In this document: one piece after another, positions 9,700 through 32,474 of the stretch
How positions within the stretch are numbered: position 1 is the stretch's first letter
Layout: each line of letters opens with the position of its first letter
DNA from: a virus
DNA: 36,910 nt
Strand: one strand, 5' to 3'
IMG/VR virus record: IMGVR_UViG_3300009129_000044
Span: 1-36,910 of that record
Made by a program: the position numbers and the translations under genes
Notes under the pieces: generated by a model
Told to the model about the DNA's origin: nothing
The model's input: the letters and a program-made list of their open reading frames with translations, nothing else
Database searches by the model: none

Positions 9700-10063
9700 G
9701 GGCGTGTTTCGGATTCGACTTGAATTGAATTGATGCACTACAAGCCGGAGACGCACTTGGCTTCGATAAAAAAGTGCAACGTTGTACATGGCAACAAAGA
9801 CCGTGTTAGAGCTTTCGGGTTTAAGAGCCCCAAGCTCGCCTTAGCAGCATAGGCTGCTAACCTTCTACCAAGAGACGCAGATATTTTGGATAGGGGGTCA
9901 TCCATCTGCAAAACAGAAAAGGTTTACTTGTTAATAAACTGTAAATAATTGTAACAAGGAGTTCGATGTTAGTGTCAATAACTCAAAAGGAAACTAACTA
10001 AGCTTGTAGATGTGTATGCTTGAAGGTTTAAGGACGCGGGTTCAATTCCCGCCACGTCCACCA
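9700..10063 (+). ncRNA. ssrA: tmRNA (transfer-messenger RNA)
   Basis: The two ends form a tRNA-like domain: 5' GGGCGTG (9700-9706) pairs with CACGTCC (10053-10059), followed by an encoded ACCA; the T arm is GCGGG TTCAATT CCCGC. A downstream pseudoknot is visible, with AAGCC/GGCTT as stem 1 and GCACTT/AAGTGC as stem 2, followed by the tag frame. The stop codon sits in a hairpin of TTAGCAGC and GCTGCTAA with loop ATAG. The 3' half contains AACTAACTAAGCTTGTAGAT, close to the conserved segment of bacterial tmRNAs. The RNA rescues ribosomes stalled on broken mRNA and adds a degradation tag. It lies between the lysis-type genes and a convergent minus-strand gene that ends 3 bases downstream. No strong terminator follows. 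The features are those of a functional, one-piece tmRNA. Confidence 0.96.
9790..9852 (+). other. tmRNA tag-peptide reading frame
   Basis: The frame ending in GCC TTA GCA GCA TAG gives a tag ending KLALAA, the standard Clp-protease degron. Reading back to GGC at 9790, 12 bases after pseudoknot 1, gives 20 residues beginning GNKDRV. A Gly resume codon is less usual than Ala. The alternative GCA frame starting at 9791 (ATKTV...) ends without the LALAA degron, so it is less likely. Confidence 0.8.
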
Positions 10064-10065
10064 TT

Positions 10066-10869
10066 TTATTCGGGTCTTTTGCCTAAAGGCTTTCCATCTT
10101 GCCCGATTTCTCCTGCGCGAATTTTGGTTGCGGAAACTGCTTGAAGCTCCTTGCTTAGCTCAAGTTGTTCAATATTATAGCCAACCCCTCTTCCGTAGAA
10201 TATATCCATAATATTTGGAAGTTCAATAATTTTTATCTTATTCCCAAATTCTACACAAGCAGTTTTTATTTCCGCCTTTACTTTCTTGAAATCATAGAGA
10301 TTGTTCTCATCGATTCCCCCTACGTCCCTGAGGGCGATACAGCACTGCCCTGTCCTTTTGAGGGCTTCTGCGACCAACGCCTTGTGTCCAGCATGAAAAG
10401 GCTGATACCTACCTATAAGCAGAGCGGTGGGGGCTTGATTATCCCACTCCTCGGTTTCATTTAATTTTTTGGTGACTGCCTTAACCCATTCTTCAGATGT
10501 CCCGCCTTCCAGTTTTATATCATAATCTTCTGGTTTTTCAAACATTTTATTAGTGTCGGCATATCTCCCTTCTTCTATACGATTTACCCAAATTGTAAAA
10601 TCTGCGTTAAATGCTTTTCTAGTTTCTTTTGTGGGGCAAATAAAGTCTGCCACTGCATATCCACCCCCAAGAGTCGCCCAATCACATAATTTACCCATCC
10701 GAGTAGCATGCTTTATCCTGTCTTCGTAGTCAAAACCAAGCTCAGAATAAATGTCCTGCCTGACTGCATCGGCATTGAACCAAGCGGCGTTAAGTTTTTG
10801 AATTAGCTTTTCGGCTAATGTAGTCTTACCCGAACCGGGAAGCCCCATTATAAGAATTTTTCGTTTCAT
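10066..10869 (-). CDS. APS kinase-like P-loop kinase fused to NMNAT-like nucleotidyltransferase
   Basis: 267 residues from ATG at 10869; an upstream in-frame start at 10917 is possible but would run through the promoter-like box. The N-terminal half has a Walker A (GLPGSGKT), then NADAVRQDIYSELGFDYEDR and a later RYADTNKMFEKPEDYDIKLEG segment, matching the adenylylsulfate kinase family. The C-terminal half has GRYQPFHAGH, a HxGH nucleotidyltransferase motif in the form used by NMN adenylyltransferases, and a closing SATKIR (S/TxxR-type motif). Substrates cannot be decided from sequence: nicotinamide riboside/NMN salvage, sugar or sulfate activation are all possible. It is one of two minus-strand genes here and converges on the tmRNA. 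Confidence 0.85.
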   Translation of the reverse strand: MKRKILIMGLPGSGKTTLAEKLIQKLNAAWFNADAVRQDIYSELGFDYEDRIKHATRMGKLCDWATLGGGYAVADFICPTKETRKAFNADFTIWVNRIEEGRYADTNKMFEKPEDYDIKLEGGTSEEWVKAVTKKLNETEEWDNQAPTALLIGRYQPFHAGHKALVAEALKRTGQCCIALRDVGGIDENNLYDFKKVKAEIKTACVEFGNKIKIIELPNIMDIFYGRGVGYNIEQLELSKELQAVSATKIRAGEIGQDGKPLGKRPE

Positions 10870-10876
10870 TCTTAGA

Positions 10877-10885
10877 ATAATACAC
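10877..10885 (-). promoter_or_regulatory. GTGTAnnAT-type promoter box, minus strand
   Basis: Read on the minus strand the site is GTGTATTAT, 7 bases before the ATG at 10869. No good -35 is seen. It is back-to-back with the consensus promoter for the + strand gene at 10939, forming a short divergent control region. Confidence 0.5.
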
Positions 10886-10903
10886 CGTCTTACATTAATA
10901 TTC

Positions 10904-10931
10904 TTGACTTTTTTCAAAAAAAATATATACT
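10904..10931 (+). promoter_or_regulatory. Sigma-70-type promoter, start at or next to ATG
   Basis: TTGACT (10904-10909), 16-base spacer, TATACT (10926-10931). The ATG at 10939 is 8 bases after the -10, so the mRNA would be leaderless or nearly so. It drives the HTH protein, RecA-like and nuclease genes. Confidence 0.75.
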
Positions 10932-19234: not shown

Positions 19235-19240
19235 TTGTTG

Positions 19241-20014
19241 ATGCTACCATTATTTAAGTCACATTACAGCATAGGAAAAAGTATATTAACCCTTGACCAC
19301 CCCGATAAGGCTACAGAGGGCGGGCCGTCTAGCGTTTTTGGTATAGCAAAGAGCAATGGATTAAAGGAAGTTTTTCTTGTTGAGGATTCCCTTGTTGGCT
19401 TTTTGGAGGCTAAAAAGGTGGCAGAAGATATTGGGGTTCAGCTTATTTTTGGCTTGCGTATTAACGCTTGTGATGACATGAACCTTAAAATAGAAAAGGG
19501 CTGTTCAATGTGCGTACATAAGATTATCGTTTTCGCCAAAGACTCCGAGGGCTGCAAGCTATTGAATAAAATATATAGCTGTGCATTCACCAAAGGAGAA
19601 GGGAGAATAGATTTCAAAACTTTGAAAACTTTTTACAACAAAGATCATCTTAAAATTGTTATTCCGTTTTATGATTCCTTTATGTTTAATAATTCCTTTT
19701 ACTATAGCGAGCCTTGTATGCTTGATGACTCTTTCTTTGAGCCCACTTACTTTATTGAACACAATCATTTACCATTTGATGATGTCTTGGGTGGAATCAT
19801 GAAACATTATTGCTATGAAAACAGTTTCGAATTAGAAAAGGTTAAAACTATTTATTACGAAAACAGAGAAGACTTTGAGGCTTATCAGACTTACAAATGT
19901 ATTTGCAATAGAGGCTTCTCCAATAAGCCTAAGACCTTAGATATGCCGAACCTTGATCATTGCGGTAGTTCGGAATTTTGTTTTGAAAGTTATTTAGAAA
20001 ATGAAAGCGCTTAA
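19241..20014 (+). CDS. Stand-alone PHP domain of DNA polymerase III alpha, metal site degraded
   Basis: 257 residues from ATG at 19241. Sequence order follows the N-terminal PHP domain of DnaE: FKSHYSIGKS at the start, FLVEDSLVGFLEAKKVAEDIGVQ, LIFGLRIN, then HKIIVFAKDSEGCKLLNKIYSCAFTKGEGRIDFKTL, which parallels the H-lak-n-xGy-nL-ls-a pattern. The usual metal ligands are lost: HxH is replaced (LFK) and TDH is replaced by VED. It is therefore likely a structural, non-enzymatic partner of the polymerase core encoded at 21613-24204. It overlaps the GMP reductase gene by 14 bases. Confident on homology by order of motifs; moderate on loss of activity. Confidence 0.78.
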   Translation: MLPLFKSHYSIGKSILTLDHPDKATEGGPSSVFGIAKSNGLKEVFLVEDSLVGFLEAKKVAEDIGVQLIFGLRINACDDMNLKIEKGCSMCVHKIIVFAKDSEGCKLLNKIYSCAFTKGEGRIDFKTLKTFYNKDHLKIVIPFYDSFMFNNSFYYSEPCMLDDSFFEPTYFIEHNHLPFDDVLGGIMKHYCYENSFELEKVKTIYYENREDFEAYQTYKCICNRGFSNKPKTLDMPNLDHCGSSEFCFESYLENESA

Positions 20015-20978
20015 ATACTCAGATATATCTTTAGTTCCCAAGTATAGCGAAGTCCATAGTAGAGTTGACTGTGATACGTCATTGGAAATAGGCAATCATA
20101 AATTCAAGCTTCCTATCATTCCGGCCAATATGAAGTCTGTTATAGATTTCAATATGTCTAGATGGATGAGTTATAATGGTTATTTTTATATCATGCATAG
20201 GTTTGATAGGCATTTGGCAGATGATGTCGGCTTGGCAAATTCAGAAGGCTGGCAAACTATTTCTTTTAGTACTGGCGCAAAGATAAAAGACAAGATACAT
20301 GTAATGAACATTGGTAAAAACTCTAATCTTAGAGTTGATTTTCTTACTATTGATATCGCGCATGGATACTCTGAGCGTATGAAGAGAATGATTGAGCACG
20401 TAAAAAAATGGTTGCCTAAAACTATTATTATCGCTGGTAACGTTACTACCCCCGACGCTGTGGTTGCGCTATCTAATTGGGGTGCTGATATCGTAAAAGT
20501 TGGGATCGGACAAGGCTCTCCTTGCACTACTAAAGACAAAACGGGGTTTACAATGCCCATGTTTACTGCTGTAAGATCCTGCGGGGATTGTTACCAATCG
20601 AGAGATAATTTTGACCGTGGAGTAAAGATTCCCATTATTGCTGATGGTGGAATTAAATGCAATGGCGATATCGCAAAAGCATTAGTTGCGGGGGCCGATC
20701 TAGTTATGGCAGGTGGAATGTTTGCCGCCTGTGTTGATAGCTCTGCGGTTTCCAGCACCATTAACGATGTTCCCCATAAAGCGTATTTTGGGTCTGCTAG
20801 CGTCGAGAATAAAGGTCACTCAAAGAATATTGAGGGCAAGCTCACTAATGTTTGTTGCAATAACATGACCTATGAGCAAAAACTTTTGGAGATTAAACAA
20901 GATCTTCAAAGCGCTATTAGTTACGGTGGTGGTAGCGACCTATCATGCCTAAAAGATGTTAAGCATTTCGAAGTATGA
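20001..20978 (+). CDS. guaC: GMP reductase (IMPDH/GMPR family)
   Basis: 325 residues, without the CBS insert of IMPDH. Substrate loop with catalytic Cys is GIGQGSPCTTKDKTG, followed by the phosphate-binding IADGGIKCNGDIAKALVAGADLVMAGGMFA. N-terminal SLVPKYSEVHSR and LPIIPANMKSV are also family hallmarks. It converts GMP to IMP with NADPH, moving guanine nucleotides towards adenine. The conserved HxES segment after GGMFA is altered (ACVDSS). Its position between PHP and exonuclease of the polymerase operon, with overlaps of 14 and 4 bases, is unusual. Confidence 0.88.
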   Translation: MKALKYSDISLVPKYSEVHSRVDCDTSLEIGNHKFKLPIIPANMKSVIDFNMSRWMSYNGYFYIMHRFDRHLADDVGLANSEGWQTISFSTGAKIKDKIHVMNIGKNSNLRVDFLTIDIAHGYSERMKRMIEHVKKWLPKTIIIAGNVTTPDAVVALSNWGADIVKVGIGQGSPCTTKDKTGFTMPMFTAVRSCGDCYQSRDNFDRGVKIPIIADGGIKCNGDIAKALVAGADLVMAGGMFAACVDSSAVSSTINDVPHKAYFGSASVENKGHSKNIEGKLTNVCCNNMTYEQKLLEIKQDLQSAISYGGGSDLSCLKDVKHFEV

Positions 20979-21616
20979 GCGATAATTTATTAAGATTTAA
21001 CAACAAACAAAAGTACGTTTTCTTCGACTTCGAAACGTGTGGGCTCAACCTTGGATCCTTAAGGAATAAACCTTGGCAATTAGCCTTTGTCATCGTAGAG
21101 AAAGGGAAGATTGTCGAGAAGTGCGACTATTGGCTCAAGTGGGACGACCTTCAAGTTTCGGAAGGAGCAGCCAAAGTAACAGGATGGACACAAAAAAAAT
21201 ATGATGAAAAATCCATTGATCCAGTTGCTCCCATCTCTCATTTTGATAAGTATTTATATGACCCCGAGTATTTAAAGGTGGGGCATAACATATTAGGTTT
21301 TGATGTTTACATGCACGGGCTTTGTCGCCGTTTGCTTAATCAAAAACCTGACTATAGTTTTTTGCCTCAATTAATTGATACCTTGGCTTTGTCTAGGGCC
21401 ATTCAAGGGGATATACTTTATAACAATGAAGACGATTTTCTTTTATGGCAATATAAGGTGATGTCCTTAAGAAGCTCCAAAGGTAGAAATAAACTAATTG
21501 ATCTTTGTAAAAAATACGACATACCTTTTAACCCCAAGAAACTTCATGATGCTCTTTATGATATCGAGAAGAACTATGAGGTTTTTAAAAAGTTAATATG
21601 GGAAATTGAAATATGA
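20975..21616 (+). CDS. DEDD-family 3'-5' exonuclease (DnaQ-like proofreading subunit)
   Basis: 213 residues. Motif I is VFFDFETCGL (Asp, Glu), motif II is VGHNILGFDVYMH (Asp), motif III is LHDALYDIEKNY (His, Asp), giving the DEDDh set. The polymerase core gene follows with a 4-base overlap, so this is very likely its proofreading exonuclease. Length and motif order match epsilon-subunit and phage exonucleases. Confidence 0.87.
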   Translation: MSDNLLRFNNKQKYVFFDFETCGLNLGSLRNKPWQLAFVIVEKGKIVEKCDYWLKWDDLQVSEGAAKVTGWTQKKYDEKSIDPVAPISHFDKYLYDPEYLKVGHNILGFDVYMHGLCRRLLNQKPDYSFLPQLIDTLALSRAIQGDILYNNEDDFLLWQYKVMSLRSSKGRNKLIDLCKKYDIPFNPKKLHDALYDIEKNYEVFKKLIWEIEI

Positions 21617-24204
21617 GTTTTGTTAAACAGTTTTTAAAATATGAAAGCGTGTGCCCTCCGGGCGTTATGCTTCCCGAGATTGATATCGAAGACAAGTACT
21701 ACAAAAGCTTGAGCCTATCGGCTGACATTTCCAACCTTGATTTCTTAAAGAAGTTAAGCTGGGAAGGCATGAAGCAGAAAGGAATTGATAAACTGCCCAA
21801 CAAGGATGAATATTTAGCTCGCACAAAAATGGAACTTGATATTCTTGATGAGCTAGGTTTTATAGATTACATATTACTCAACTGGGATATTTTAAATTTT
21901 TGCCATGAGAATGATATCCCTACGGGCCCCGGACGTGGGTCAGCAGCAGGATCTTTGATTCTTTATTTAATTGGGGTGACTAAGGTTGACCCCGTTAAAT
22001 ATGAATTGTTCTTTGAGCGATTTGTGAGTAAAAGTAGAGCTCGAAAAATCGAAGAGGACGGAGTGACTTATCTAGACGGAAGTTTATTAGCTGATGTGGA
22101 CAATGACATTAGTTACGAAAGGCGTCAAGAAGTTATCAATTACATAGAGGGTAAGTATCCGGGCCGAACCTCTAAAATTTTAACGCTCAATACTCTTAGC
22201 GGTAAGCTTTGCATTAAAGAGTGCGGTAAAATTGTAGGAAATTATAATGAATCGGAAGTAAATTTAGTTAGCGATACCATACCCAAAAAGTTTGGCAAGG
22301 TCGCCCCTCTTGCAGAAGCCGTGGCTGAAAGTGAAAAATTTGCAGAGTGGGCGCTTGATAATGAAGAGGTTTATAAAATAGCCAGAAAACTAGAAGGGCT
22401 TAATAAAAATGCAGGGGTTCACCCTTCGGGAATTGCTATCTCATTTCAAAAACTAGAAAGCATTTGCCCCGTTCAATTGACTAAGGATGGTGATCTAGTA
22501 ACTGGATATGATATGAATTGGGTTGCTGAGCTCATGGTAAAATTTGATATTCTTGGCTTGCGCACCTTAACTGTTATTCATGATGTATGTACCCAGCTCG
22601 ATATAGATATTAATTCTATCGACCCCAATGATCCAGAAATATATAAGCATTTACAAGACTTAAATCAACCTCAAGGTCTTTTTCAAATAGAGGCTCATAC
22701 TAATTTCAATGTGTGCAAAAAAATTAAGCCAAAAAATCTTGAAGAGCTTAGTGCTGTTGTGGCAATTGCCAGACCCGGAGCCTTGGAGTTTCTAGAGGAG
22801 TATACGACTTACTCTCAAAGCGGGGAGTTTCAAAGTCAACATTCTTTTTTTGATGAGGTGCTGTCTTATACTGGAGGGATTCCCCTTTACCAAGAGCAGC
22901 TTATGAAGATGGCTGTTAAGGTTGGCTTTACTCTTGATGAAGCTGAGCAGCTAAGAAGGATAGTGGGTAAGAAAAAGATTGACCAAATGCCCGCTTGGAA
23001 AAAGAAAATTGATGATAAGATAAAAGAAAATGGCTTAGACGACGAGGTTGCTGATATCTTATGGCATGTCGCCGAAGACAGCGCAAATTATTCATTCAAT
23101 AAATCTCATAGCTTAGCTTATGCCAATTTAGCTGCTTGGACTGCGTACTTAAAGTTTAAATATCCTCAAAATTTCTTCATAGCCTTATTGAGAATGGCTA
23201 AGCATGAGCAATGTCCCCACGAGGAGATTAATAAAATATGTCAAGAGCTTTCCTTTTTCGGCATTGAATTATTAAGGCCTGATTTGTCCAAATCCGATAT
23301 GGATTTTAAGATTGAGAATGATGACATACGTTTCGGGCTAAATAGCATTAAGGGCGTGAGCGAGAAATCCTTACAATCCCTGAAGGACTTTAGGGACAGC
23401 AAGAACCCAACTAAATATGATATTTTTCTATCTGCTAAAGAGGCGGGTTTAAACATAGGAATTTTGTCCGCCCTGATTCAAGCGGGAGCCCTTTCGGGTT
23501 ATAAAGTCCGTCGTTCCAGATTAGTACTGGAAGCTCAAGCGTTTAATATATTGACGGACAGAGAAAAGCGCAACTTTGAAGTTCTGGGACCTAAGTATAA
23601 TTGGGATGTTCTAAAAACTATACAGGCGGTTGTTCAGGAATCTTTAGTAGGCGATGACGCGAAGCCTATAATGAAAGAGAGTAGATTTGGAACCTTTCGT
23701 AAAAAATATGATTTATACAAAGAGATTTATGATAAGAACAAAAAATACGAAGCGTTCGCTAATTGGTATTTTGAGTCTGAGCTTTTAGGGTATAGCCATA
23801 GTGTCGCATTGAAAGATGTTTTTTCTGAAAGTGGGTACAAGCTTTCTGATTCTCTTGATTTTAGAGGCTTGAACCACGATGGGTTTGGTCGCTTCATCGG
23901 TGTAGTTTCAGACTCCATTAAGAGAACGAGTCGAAATGGAAATGAATACATTAAAGCTATCATTAGGGACGAGGTAGGCGAATATTCAGTTATGCTAATG
24001 GATCGTAACGCTCGTAGCGAAAGCGGAAATTGGGGCCGAATAAATGTTTTTTCTAAATTTCTCGAAAAACACCCGAAAGGTTTGCCAAAAGGTAGCATTG
24101 TCATAGTTTACGGAAGTAAAGGAGATGACATTCTTTTCTGTCATTCATTTCAAGTCGTGGATGAAAAGATCTATATGAAGCTAAGTGACGTAAAGTCTCA
24201 ATAA
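21613..24204 (+). CDS. dnaE: DNA polymerase III alpha core lacking the PHP domain
   Basis: 863 residues, C-family DNA polymerase. GPGRGSAAGSLILYLIGVTKVDP and FERFVSK are the PolC/DnaE palm signature. The ADVDNDISYERR stretch corresponds to PDxDxDF with the two catalytic Asp residues. KFDILGLRTLTVI carries the third Asp. IPLYQEQLMKMA and NYSFNKSHSLAYANLAAWTAYLKFKYPQNF are characteristic thumb/fingers regions. A C-terminal HhH/OB-like part follows. Bacterial DnaE is ~1,160 residues; this starts after where PHP would end, and the missing domain is encoded at 19241-20014. The protein replicates phage DNA with the exonuclease upstream and presumably the host sliding clamp. Confidence 0.93.
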   Translation: MSFVKQFLKYESVCPPGVMLPEIDIEDKYYKSLSLSADISNLDFLKKLSWEGMKQKGIDKLPNKDEYLARTKMELDILDELGFIDYILLNWDILNFCHENDIPTGPGRGSAAGSLILYLIGVTKVDPVKYELFFERFVSKSRARKIEEDGVTYLDGSLLADVDNDISYERRQEVINYIEGKYPGRTSKILTLNTLSGKLCIKECGKIVGNYNESEVNLVSDTIPKKFGKVAPLAEAVAESEKFAEWALDNEEVYKIARKLEGLNKNAGVHPSGIAISFQKLESICPVQLTKDGDLVTGYDMNWVAELMVKFDILGLRTLTVIHDVCTQLDIDINSIDPNDPEIYKHLQDLNQPQGLFQIEAHTNFNVCKKIKPKNLEELSAVVAIARPGALEFLEEYTTYSQSGEFQSQHSFFDEVLSYTGGIPLYQEQLMKMAVKVGFTLDEAEQLRRIVGKKKIDQMPAWKKKIDDKIKENGLDDEVADILWHVAEDSANYSFNKSHSLAYANLAAWTAYLKFKYPQNFFIALLRMAKHEQCPHEEINKICQELSFFGIELLRPDLSKSDMDFKIENDDIRFGLNSIKGVSEKSLQSLKDFRDSKNPTKYDIFLSAKEAGLNIGILSALIQAGALSGYKVRRSRLVLEAQAFNILTDREKRNFEVLGPKYNWDVLKTIQAVVQESLVGDDAKPIMKESRFGTFRKKYDLYKEIYDKNKKYEAFANWYFESELLGYSHSVALKDVFSESGYKLSDSLDFRGLNHDGFGRFIGVVSDSIKRTSRNGNEYIKAIIRDEVGEYSVMLMDRNARSESGNWGRINVFSKFLEKHPKGLPKGSIVIVYGSKGDDILFCHSFQVVDEKIYMKLSDVKSQ

Positions 24205-24206
24205 AT

Positions 24207-24215
24207 GTGTATCAT
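24207..24215 (+). promoter_or_regulatory. GTGTAnnAT-type promoter box before the Clp gene
   Basis: GTGTATCAT, with ATG codons at 24219 and 24222. No convincing -35. The DnaE stop is 3 bases upstream, so the Clp gene can be transcribed separately from the polymerase operon. Confidence 0.45.
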
Positions 24216-24221
24216 ACTATG

Positions 24222-26678
24222 ATGGATTCGACTCCAAATTTCACACCAAGGGCTCAAGAAGCTCTTAAGATTTCTCGAGACTACGCTCTTGAGTATCGTT
24301 CCTCTAAGGTAGACTTGACTCATTTACTTTTGGGCTTAGTGTCTCAAACCAGAGGGCTATTAAGAGAAGTGTTTGACATCAGCGGTTACGCCATAGATGA
24401 TTTCCGATCTCATCTGGAAAAAAATATTGCACGTGGAAAATATAAAGGAGAGATGGTAAGTTTTTCTGAAGAATTTAAATTAATTTTACAGCTGGCTTAT
24501 CAAACCGCTGAGAGTCTTGATCAATCCTATGTGGGGACAGAGCACTTAATGATCGCCATAATTAAATACAACTGCCCTGAAATAGAATCTATATTTTTTG
24601 AATGCAACATCAACCCTAAGTCTCTTTCCTTGGCCATAAGAACTCACCTCCTTGAATCTTCTCAGATATACTCTTCCTTAGATACTGAGCGCGGTCTAGA
24701 CTCTCCTTTGGCCGCCGTAAACCCCGCAAAGCAAGCAAAATCCCCAAGCGCCCTTGAAGCTTATGCAATAAATTACAATCAATTGGCTGCTGAGGGCAAA
24801 TTTAATCGAGTCATCTGCAGGGATCATGATCTTGCCGAAATGACTGAGATCCTATGCAGGAAAAGCAAAAACAATCCTATTTTATTAGGGGAACCGGGAA
24901 TAGGCAAGACAGCCTTAGTGGAGGGCTTAACTAGAACAATTATAAAGTCGGAATGTTCTGAGCACCTTTTGGGTCATGTAATATATGGGTTAGATTTAGC
25001 CTCTATGATCGCAGGTACTAAATATCGAGGCCAATTTGAAGAACGCTTGAAGAATGTTATCAAGGAACTTAAAGAGGTTTCTAAACTTATATTATTCATT
25101 GACGAGATGCATACCCTCGTGGGAGCTGGGAGCGCAGAGGGGAGCATGGACGCCGCAAATATACTTAAGCCGTTGCTTGCTAGAGGGGAAATACGTTGCA
25201 TAGGAGCCACCACTATTGAAGAGTACAAAAAGCATATAGAAAAAGATGGCGCTTTGGCGCGTCGCTTTCAGCCTGTTAATGTTGACGAGCCCTCGCGTCA
25301 AGACTGCAAGACGATACTAAAAGGCATAGTCTCCAGCTATGAGGGGTTTCATGATGTTAAATATACGGATGAGACACTGGATTTATGTGTTGATCTTTCT
25401 GTTAAATATATACATGATCGATATTTGCCCGACAAGGCAATCGATTTAATGGATCAAGCAGGCTCAAAGGTTAAGATAGAAAACTTCAAAAGACCCAAGG
25501 AAGCAAAAAAAATAGAAGTCGAGCTTGAAAAACTCATGATTGCAGAGGACGAAGCAATTTCTAAATCTATTACTTTTAGTATTACTAAGCGTCAGGATAA
25601 TTTATTTAAAAAGTATAAGAAAATAATTGAAGAATGGTCAGAGTCAAATAAAAAATCTGATTATATTGTTTCTCCCGAAGACGTTCGTTTTGTTTTGGCT
25701 AAGAAAATCGGAGTGCCTCTTTCTCAAATATCTAAAACTTCTGAGCAAGAGTTCTTGAATCTAGAAAGTCAATTAAATGAATTAATCATTGGGCAAGAAG
25801 AGGCTATCTCCTCTATTTGTAAATCTTTAATTAGGAATAGAGCGGGACTTAAGGATGAAAACAAACCTATTGGGTGTTTTTTAATGCTTGGCCCTTCAGG
25901 AATCGGGAAAACCTACACCTCTAAAGTGTTGGCGGAAAAACTCTTTGGAAGTAAGGACAATTTTATTAGTGTTAGCATGACTGAGTATAGCGAAGGTCAC
26001 TCAGGGTCTAAATTAATAGGGGCGGCGCCCGGCTATGTTGGCTATGAAGCGGCTGGTCAATTAACTGAGAAGGTAAGGAAAAAGCCTTATAGCGTTATTC
26101 TTTTTGATGAGATTGAAAAAGCCCATGAAAATGTGACGCAGACCTTACTACAAATTCTTGATGAAGGGTCCATCAAAGACAGTATGGGTCGGAGCATTAA
26201 CTTTAAAAATTGTGTTATTATTCTGACTGGTAATATTGGTTCTAGCATAGCCAAGGGAAATGTTGGTGTTGGTTTTGGCGCAATTAATGATCAACAAAAT
26301 CCGGAAGAGATAAAAGACAGGATTAAAAAGGAGGTTCTAAAAAAGTTAAGTCCAGAATTTATAAATCGATTGGATGACTTTATAGTTTTTAAGGAATTTA
26401 ATGAAGACAATTTCTTTAAAATCATCAATCTACATATTAACGATCTTAAACTCAAGCTTCAACCTAAAGGATTTTCCATCTTTGTAAACAAAGCCGCTAA
26501 ATTAAATCTTGCAAAAGAAGCTCAAGTTTTTAAAGATGGAGCCAGACCTGTGGCTAGGATAATACAGAAGCATATTGTAGACCCTTTGTCAGAAAAACTC
26601 TTGCAAAATTCATCTAAAGAATTTAAAAAGGTCAAGGTTTCTTATACTAAAAAAGGGTTTCAGTTTAAATTCGAATAA
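24222..26678 (+). CDS. ClpC-like AAA+ protein unfoldase
   Basis: 818 residues from ATG 24222 (24219 is also possible). Two Clp N-terminal repeats (FTPRAQEALKISRDYA, LILQLAYQTAESL) are followed by D1 with Walker A GEPGIGKT, Walker B LILFIDEMH, then an M-domain-like coiled coil (~residues 415-480). D2 has Walker A GPSGIGKT, VILFDEIEKAH and SPEFINRLDD. The M-region length fits ClpC rather than ClpA or ClpB. A VGF tripeptide (residues 683-685) sits where ClpC/ClpA carry the ClpP-docking loop, which ClpB lacks. It would unfold substrates and feed them to host ClpP. No ClpP gene is in the window. A phage-coded ClpC next to a tmRNA-coding genome is notable. Confidence 0.92.
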   Translation: MDSTPNFTPRAQEALKISRDYALEYRSSKVDLTHLLLGLVSQTRGLLREVFDISGYAIDDFRSHLEKNIARGKYKGEMVSFSEEFKLILQLAYQTAESLDQSYVGTEHLMIAIIKYNCPEIESIFFECNINPKSLSLAIRTHLLESSQIYSSLDTERGLDSPLAAVNPAKQAKSPSALEAYAINYNQLAAEGKFNRVICRDHDLAEMTEILCRKSKNNPILLGEPGIGKTALVEGLTRTIIKSECSEHLLGHVIYGLDLASMIAGTKYRGQFEERLKNVIKELKEVSKLILFIDEMHTLVGAGSAEGSMDAANILKPLLARGEIRCIGATTIEEYKKHIEKDGALARRFQPVNVDEPSRQDCKTILKGIVSSYEGFHDVKYTDETLDLCVDLSVKYIHDRYLPDKAIDLMDQAGSKVKIENFKRPKEAKKIEVELEKLMIAEDEAISKSITFSITKRQDNLFKKYKKIIEEWSESNKKSDYIVSPEDVRFVLAKKIGVPLSQISKTSEQEFLNLESQLNELIIGQEEAISSICKSLIRNRAGLKDENKPIGCFLMLGPSGIGKTYTSKVLAEKLFGSKDNFISVSMTEYSEGHSGSKLIGAAPGYVGYEAAGQLTEKVRKKPYSVILFDEIEKAHENVTQTLLQILDEGSIKDSMGRSINFKNCVIILTGNIGSSIAKGNVGVGFGAINDQQNPEEIKDRIKKEVLKKLSPEFINRLDDFIVFKEFNEDNFFKIINLHINDLKLKLQPKGFSIFVNKAAKLNLAKEAQVFKDGARPVARIIQKHIVDPLSEKLLQNSSKEFKKVKVSYTKKGFQFKFE

Positions 26679-31820: not shown

Positions 31821-32474
31821 ATGAAGAATACAAAAATAATTATCACAGCCCTTTTGGGGCTTTTTATTAACGTCGCTTCTGCAGAGAATTATTCTGCTGA
31901 AATTAGGTATACCTCTGATTATTTTTATCGGGGAGCCCTCAAGTCAGACCAAGCCGTTCAGTCGAGTGTTGGATTGTCGGCTTCAGGTGGTGGACTTGGT
32001 TTTTCTGCAGGTGCATTCACCAATCAAGCTGTTGATTCGGGCTCCGACACTTATATTTTAAGCGCAGGAATTTCCAAAAGCTTTGTTGACGAGCTGTTGT
32101 CAGCTTATGTTGGGGTTAACCATGTTGAAGATGTTGCCGGGGCTGCTGCTTTAGAGGCTCAAGTTTCCATTGGGTTAAACTGGCCCTTATCTCCAAATTT
32201 AAGTGTTTATAGAGATCTTGACGATTCTTTATATACTTATGAGCTCGCCTTGAGTCATGAACTTGATTTAGAAGTTCTTTCTTTAGGTCTTAACGGTTCG
32301 ATTGGGAATACGGAAACGAGTTCTTCGGCTGATAATAGTTATTATACCGTAGGAGCCGTTGCTTCTCGCTCTTTGAGCGATAATTCCACTGTTTCCCTTG
32401 GGGTCACTCATGTTGACTCTGATACTATCTCTAACGAGTATGTATTTGATTTTGGCGTAGCTATTAAATTTTAA
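31821..32474 (+). CDS. Outer-membrane beta-barrel protein (Gcw_chp-like)
   Basis: 217 residues. Signal peptide to about residue 21 (MKNTKIIITALLGLFINVASA, cleavage before E). The mature part begins ENYSAEIRYTSDYFYRGA, which matches the start of the Gcw_chp family, and shows amphipathic strands (SDTYILSAGIS, DNSYYTVGAVASRSLSDNSTVSLGVTH). The C-terminus is IKF with a final Phe, as in outer-membrane proteins. A TATAAT at 31802-31807 precedes the gene with only a weak -35. A phage-coded outer-membrane protein could change receptor exposure (superinfection exclusion) or nutrient entry. Confidence 0.82.
   Translation: MKNTKIIITALLGLFINVASAENYSAEIRYTSDYFYRGALKSDQAVQSSVGLSASGGGLGFSAGAFTNQAVDSGSDTYILSAGISKSFVDELLSAYVGVNHVEDVAGAAALEAQVSIGLNWPLSPNLSVYRDLDDSLYTYELALSHELDLEVLSLGLNGSIGNTETSSSADNSYYTVGAVASRSLSDNSTVSLGVTHVDSDTISNEYVFDFGVAIKF

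Follow-up and report, generated by a model that had tools for sequence, protein, structure and literature searches.

The window analyzed here is the whole of virus record IMGVR_UViG_3300009129_000044, 36,910 bases from a virus of bacteria, whose first 25 kb gave no DNA similarity to known phages by megablast. A gene for a ClpC-type AAA+ unfoldase lies in its replication block, away from the virion genes, and a tmRNA gene is found 14 kb from it. The relevant features are:

9700–10063, plus strand, one-piece tmRNA gene with encoded CCA and a G3:U70 pair (Rfam RF00023)
9790–9852, plus strand, tag reading frame GNKDRVRAFGFKSPKLALAA and stop, ending in LALAA, a Clp degron
19235–20014, weak PHP-domain ORF, part of the apparently split polymerase region
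20001–20978, GMP-reductase-like ORF within the apparently split polymerase region
20975–21616, proofreading exonuclease ORF just before the polymerase part
21613–24204, plus strand, catalytic part of DNA polymerase III alpha, directly upstream of clpC and used as lineage marker
24207–26678, plus strand, ClpC-type AAA+ unfoldase gene, 823 amino acids from a GTG start
24240–24656, plus strand, N-terminal Clp domain, residues 12–150 (Pfam Clp_N above cut-off; alignment from residue 12)
24888–24911, plus strand, D1 Walker A GEPGIGKT (alignment)
25089–25106, plus strand, D1 Walker B ILFIDE (alignment)
25494–25658, plus strand, M-domain coiled coil of ClpC length, residues 430–484 (model helices 431–448 and 453–483; span length)
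25890–25913, plus strand, D2 Walker A GPSGIGKT (alignment)
26094–26111, plus strand, D2 Walker B VILFDE (alignment)
26268–26276, plus strand, VGF tripeptide, residues 688–690 (alignment with the ClpP-docking loop)

The likely clpC start is 24219 or 24222, because relatives begin with MMDSTPNF. DNA polymerase III alpha appears to be split across 19235–24204, and the relatives listed carry an ORF upstream of the polymerase with an N-terminus similar to the PHP ORF of the window. Elsewhere, the ORF at 31821–32474 begins like a signal peptide and matches Gcw_chp below threshold; should its product be an outer-membrane protein, this would hint at a Gram-negative host.

By sequence comparison, the ORF at 24207–26678 was confirmed as a full-length ClpC-type unfoldase with an N-domain, two intact ATPase rings and a ClpC-length M-domain. 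Its top match among solved structures is S. aureus ClpC (E 2e-202, residues 12–820, ~40% identity), its PHROG match is phrog_4871, 'ATP-dependent protease' (E 2e-221), and it contains the Pfam set Clp_N, AAA, AAA_lid_9, AAA_2 and ClpB_D2-small. The Walker A lysines K234 and K568 and the Walker B pairs D/E 299/300 and 634/635 are kept in 84 of 84 aligned phage Clps, bearing out the original prediction of a phage ClpC-like unfoldase with both AAA+ Walker motifs. D1 R352/R353, D2 R721 and the pore tyrosine Y273 are equally invariant (84/84), and Y610 is present in 82 sequences, with F in the other two. The M-like coiled coil that had also been proposed was recovered as two helices in an AlphaFold2 model and as a D1–D2 span of 118 residues; the corresponding lengths are 121 for S. 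aureus ClpC and, in E. coli, 64 for ClpA and 182 for ClpB. Because this span is near the ClpC length and not that of ClpA or ClpB, the coiled coil is ClpC-like; the phage protein thus has the short M-domain, a class feature that is absent in ClpA and longer in ClpB.

The AlphaFold2 model was built from 14 viral sequences with a mean pLDDT of 79 and a pTM of 0.54, so that the relative placement of domains in it is uncertain. Within the model, the N-domain (residues ~14–149) is confidently predicted to be all-helical, and the best fold match of the model as a whole was a ClpC–ClpP model, followed by the S. aureus MecA/ClpC/ClpP complex. Assignment as ClpA was rejected at 665 bits against an NCBIfam equivalog cut-off of 993, and assignment as ClpB at 756 bits against a cut-off of 1232; the M-domain length also speaks against both, and the ClpP loop against ClpB. 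Recent capture of clpC from a host is likewise unsupported, as cellular sequences reach at most ~42% identity among the 80 matches listed and the phage sequences fall on their own branches. The Clp tree was built with FastTree only and included three bacterial rows with mis-read frames, while one more bacterial row dropped out of it; these four rows were left out of the aligned-residue counts.

The feature that would connect this unfoldase to a protease is the VGF tripeptide, which the original prediction had placed at the ClpP contact site. Alignment to ClpA, ClpB and ClpC put it inside the ClpP loop, where S. aureus ClpC has AGF and E. coli ClpA has IGL, with no counterpart in E. coli ClpB, and VGF agrees with the published ClpP-binding motif (L/I/V)-G-(F/L) (PMC8745299). 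In the AlphaFold2 model it falls inside a low-confidence loop (685–696). The 84 phage Clps carry IGF (31), VGF (30), MGF (9), LGF (9), IGY (2), FGF (2) or MTF (1) at this position, so that G689 is kept in 83 and F/Y690 in all 84, while adjacent columns are free to vary. A constrained tripeptide with variable flanks is the pattern expected if the loop has stayed in use, and the alignment together with this constraint makes it likely that the phage ClpC docks on host ClpP through its VGF loops.

The same data bear on the possibility that the protein is a ClpP-independent chaperone or assembly factor, acting in ClpB-like disaggregation or in virion assembly, with VGF as a relic. Such a role would suit the Clp genes of XaC1, Vibrio phage 2.275.O and Klebsiella phage fENko-Kae01, which are found amid virion genes or close to them, and the fENko-Kae01 Clp protein has been identified by mass spectrometry. 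It fits poorly with a tripeptide kept across 84 aligned phage Clps beside freely varying positions, with the lack of that tripeptide in ClpB, with an M-domain of ClpC rather than ClpB length and with the location of the window clpC in a replication block instead of with virion genes. We therefore consider this explanation improbable.

The tmRNA predicted in the same genome, with a tag ending in LALAA, was found to be complete at 9700–10063 and to encode the tag GNKDRVRAFGFKSPKLALAA. It scores 145.6 bits over the full RF00023 model (1–374), and its fold is better than that of shuffled sequences by 3.6 standard deviations (z-score −3.6). As read off the sequence, the acceptor end GGGCGTG pairs with CACGTCC, which is followed by ACCA, and contains G3:U70, the alanine identity pair. 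From this intact anatomy, the phage tmRNA is likely functional and of the alanine type. Directly behind it, an opposite-strand ORF (10066–10917, minus strand) has APS-kinase-like and cytidylyltransferase-like domains.

Tags from the 30 tmRNAs of the lineage defined below were taken from reading frames that end at the conserved position, with an ending filter of (A/V/I/L)A. All 30 end in AA or VA and 21 end in LALAA, the latter share being the informative figure, rather than the bare final A, because the filter selected for such endings. The interior and length of the tags are highly variable, and the conserved ends fit a constraint on the degron end. Unusually long tags of ~31 residues with an apparent internal repeat (for example, GNKNRVRALGFKNRLAAKRFGFKGRKLALAA) were observed at loci L082, L084, L201 and L217–L219. 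That the tmRNA could be a functionless hitchhiker, picked up by integration at, or imprecise excision from, host ssrA, derives some plausibility from ssrA being a known prophage integration site (discussed in PMC9004378). The gene is complete, however, with acceptor pair and tag end intact and with tmRNA kept across a divergent lineage, and integrase was not found among the ORFs scanned; we regard this origin as very improbable.

Co-occurrence of the two genes was assessed in a lineage defined independently of both Clp and tmRNA, namely 50 records with relatives of the neighboring DNA polymerase III alpha, in which ClpC was scored by the lid domain typical of ClpA/B/C. clpC was present in 49 of the 50 records, a count raised by linkage because the polymerase adjoins clpC, and tmRNA, whose count is unaffected by this, in 30 of 50. 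Among records of more than 100 kb the numbers were 17/17 for clpC and 14/17 for tmRNA, in line with the co-occurrence in relatives that had been anticipated, and all six records of at least 150 kb carried both. In a second set, the records holding the best 80 viral Clp relatives, tmRNA scored above the Rfam cut-off in 18 of 50, the two closest relatives included. In a published survey, 2.3% of phage genomes had a tmRNA (PMC9004378), a figure that serves here as a rough yardstick only. clpC and tmRNA are thus a real and well-conserved pair. Because both are near-core in the lineage, shared ancestry accounts for much of their co-occurrence, and with clpC near-universal there, no contrast within the lineage can prove a functional association; lacking Clp-free members for comparison, the association cannot be separated from shared descent.

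Gene order, measured by tblastn, gave a more varied picture. tmRNA follows clpC on the same strand by ~40–45 bases in G083 and G084, by 58 bases in G013 and by ~150 bases in G016, and lies ~1.3 kb behind it in G029, G058, G061 and G066; together these eight records fall in three separate clades on the Clp tree, with direct adjacency (40–150 bases) in two Clp clades only. Elsewhere, the distance ranges from ~1 to >100 kb. Outside the lineage, tmRNA lies closely behind a true ClpP gene in jumbo phages G045 and G047 and within ~0.7 kb of one in G020, and in jumbo record G038 a ClpP gene neighbors a tmRNA match just under the Rfam cut-off. These ClpP–tmRNA neighbors (G045 222727–223757, G047 193634–194645, G020 178291–179893 and G038 222294–223318; loci L114, L115, L118 and L097–L100) are ~130 bases to 0.7 kb apart, and the two ClpPs tested from them resemble canonical ClpP, not head proteases. 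In G046 (47723–48622; loci L096 and L123), tmRNA is directly followed by an SmpB gene, and the same virus record also has a ClpC-type ATPase. The first reading of the window did not include this genomic hint, with tmRNA next to clpC in some members of the lineage and next to clpP or smpB in jumbo phages unrelated to it.

Spacing of this kind is central to the main rival explanation, in which the two genes are independent tools: ClpC with host ClpP would act on specific phage or host proteins in assembly or host takeover, tmRNA would only rescue ribosomes, with tagged products passing to host ClpXP/ClpAP, and their joint presence would reflect the tendency of large phages to gather genes of this type. 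Variable spacing and the existence of phages that carry one of these genes alone back this reading, among them phages with Clp and ClpP that have no tmRNA and other marine phages from which tmRNA has been reported (PMC9004378), as do published proposals that jumbo-phage Clp ATPases function in assembly or replication control (PMC7824862 and PMC6102473). Unrelated tools would not be expected to show the clade-specific position of tmRNA immediately after clpC, nor that of tmRNA by clpP in jumbo phages. We see the independent use of the two genes as a substantial possibility, though one well short of even.

A search for the remaining partners was negative in the lineage, within the limits set by records that may be fragments. 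SmpB was found in 0/18 large lineage records, nor was it found in the lineage members of the Clp-relative set; ClpS was found in 0/31 records; and the window encodes no ClpP, with no canonical ClpP in the lineage records searched. Four lineage members have an S14 ClpP-like serine protease (loci L250–L253; records G003, G055, G063 and G062). The two that were tested scored about equally as ClpP and as head-maturation protease, and the S14 proteins are therefore not counted as canonical ClpP. In G062 and G063, this protease occurs alongside ClpC and tmRNA. With neither SmpB nor canonical ClpP in the lineage, a working system would need host SmpB and host ClpP, and the absence of canonical ClpP fits use of the host protease.

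Taken together, we favor as the best explanation, and hold to be moderately probable, a single phage proteostasis kit consisting of ClpC on host ClpP and an alanine-type tmRNA with host SmpB. In such a kit, the hexameric ClpC-type unfoldase would dock on host ClpP via its VGF loops, while the phage tmRNA and host SmpB would, in the course of infection, release ribosomes stalled by broken messages and add an LALAA-ended degron to the stalled chains; host ribosomes would be kept usable, and stalled or unwanted chains would be returned to amino acids through host ClpP. The jumbo-phage tmRNAs next to true ClpP (G045 and G047, near it in G020, and as a weaker match in G038) or SmpB (G046) form an independent parallel in favor of the kit. 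Counted against it are the restriction of direct adjacency to two clades, the presence of a tmRNA above the cut-off in only one of nine named or public jumbo phages and its occurrence in other marine phages in a paper that does not mention Clp (PMC9004378). The weakest step, which we purely infer, is the handover of tmRNA-tagged chains to the phage ClpC and not to ClpX or ClpA of the host, and we give this somewhat less than an even chance. A dedicated tag-and-degrade pathway, in which phage tmRNA tags stalled chains, phage ClpC on host ClpP prefers those tags and host proteolysis is reprogrammed by the swapped ATPase, with an all-viral version using its own SmpB and ClpP in jumbo phages, appears less likely than not. 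The combined tag-and-route system of the original prediction accordingly stands in part: co-occurrence, some adjacency, degron-like tag ends and the lack of canonical ClpP agree with it, but recognition of the tag by the phage ClpC and selective routing of host proteins stay at the level of proposals, as does a single unit, given spacing from ~40 bases to >100 kb, 20/50 lineage records without tmRNA and phages with one gene only.

If the pair does act together, the degradation tag and the ATPase serving host ClpP would both come from the phage, which would in this way reprogram protein turnover in its host. Many phage tmRNAs would then gain a concrete downstream partner, and the role of phage tmRNA would become testable with two genes.

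Each part is already known in phages, and in the open-access literature searched, we found no paper in which a phage tmRNA and a phage ClpC are considered together as one unit. The novelty claimed in the original prediction holds for the unit as such and needs qualifying for the co-presence, as jumbo Sinorhizobium phage AP-J-162 is on record with tmRNA and six Clp ORFs in one genome (PMC11242549). Clp ATPases and ClpP of jumbo phages have been described, with proposed roles in assembly, replication control and host-protein degradation (PMC7824862 and PMC6102473); the window phage shares Clp ATPases with Atu_ph07 (PMC6102473) and AP-J-162, and tmRNA with the latter. Among nine jumbo phages, named or public, that have a Clp relative, tmRNA scored above the cut-off in one; most of the nine records have a ClpP-family protein and no tmRNA. 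The window lineage differs from them in having ClpC and tmRNA but no canonical ClpP, and in its separate ClpC branch. On the tmRNA side, huge phages with tmRNA and SmpB are known (PMC7162821), and tagging of host proteins for degradation has been proposed for the tmRNA of OM43 phage Melnitz, which is two-piece, in contrast to the one-piece tmRNA of the window phage, in a paper silent on Clp (PMC9004378). On the protease side, the phage ClpC has in common with ClpC of Bacillota (S. aureus and B. subtilis), which works with ClpP, the domain order, ATPase motifs, short M-domain and ClpP-loop tripeptide. Unlike Bacillota ClpC, it is phage-encoded, sits on its own branch at no more than ~42% identity to cellular sequences (among the 80 matches listed) and comes from a system in which no phage ClpP, ClpS or MecA/McsB-type adaptor was identified. 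The characterized phage adaptor SPO1 gp53 redirects host ClpCP (PMC6873191) by adapting the host's ClpC, whereas the window phage supplies ClpC itself; if that ClpC docks, both would be phage-side redirections of ClpCP proteolysis, and supply of the ATPase would contrast with adaptor-only (SPO1 gp53) or inhibitor strategies.
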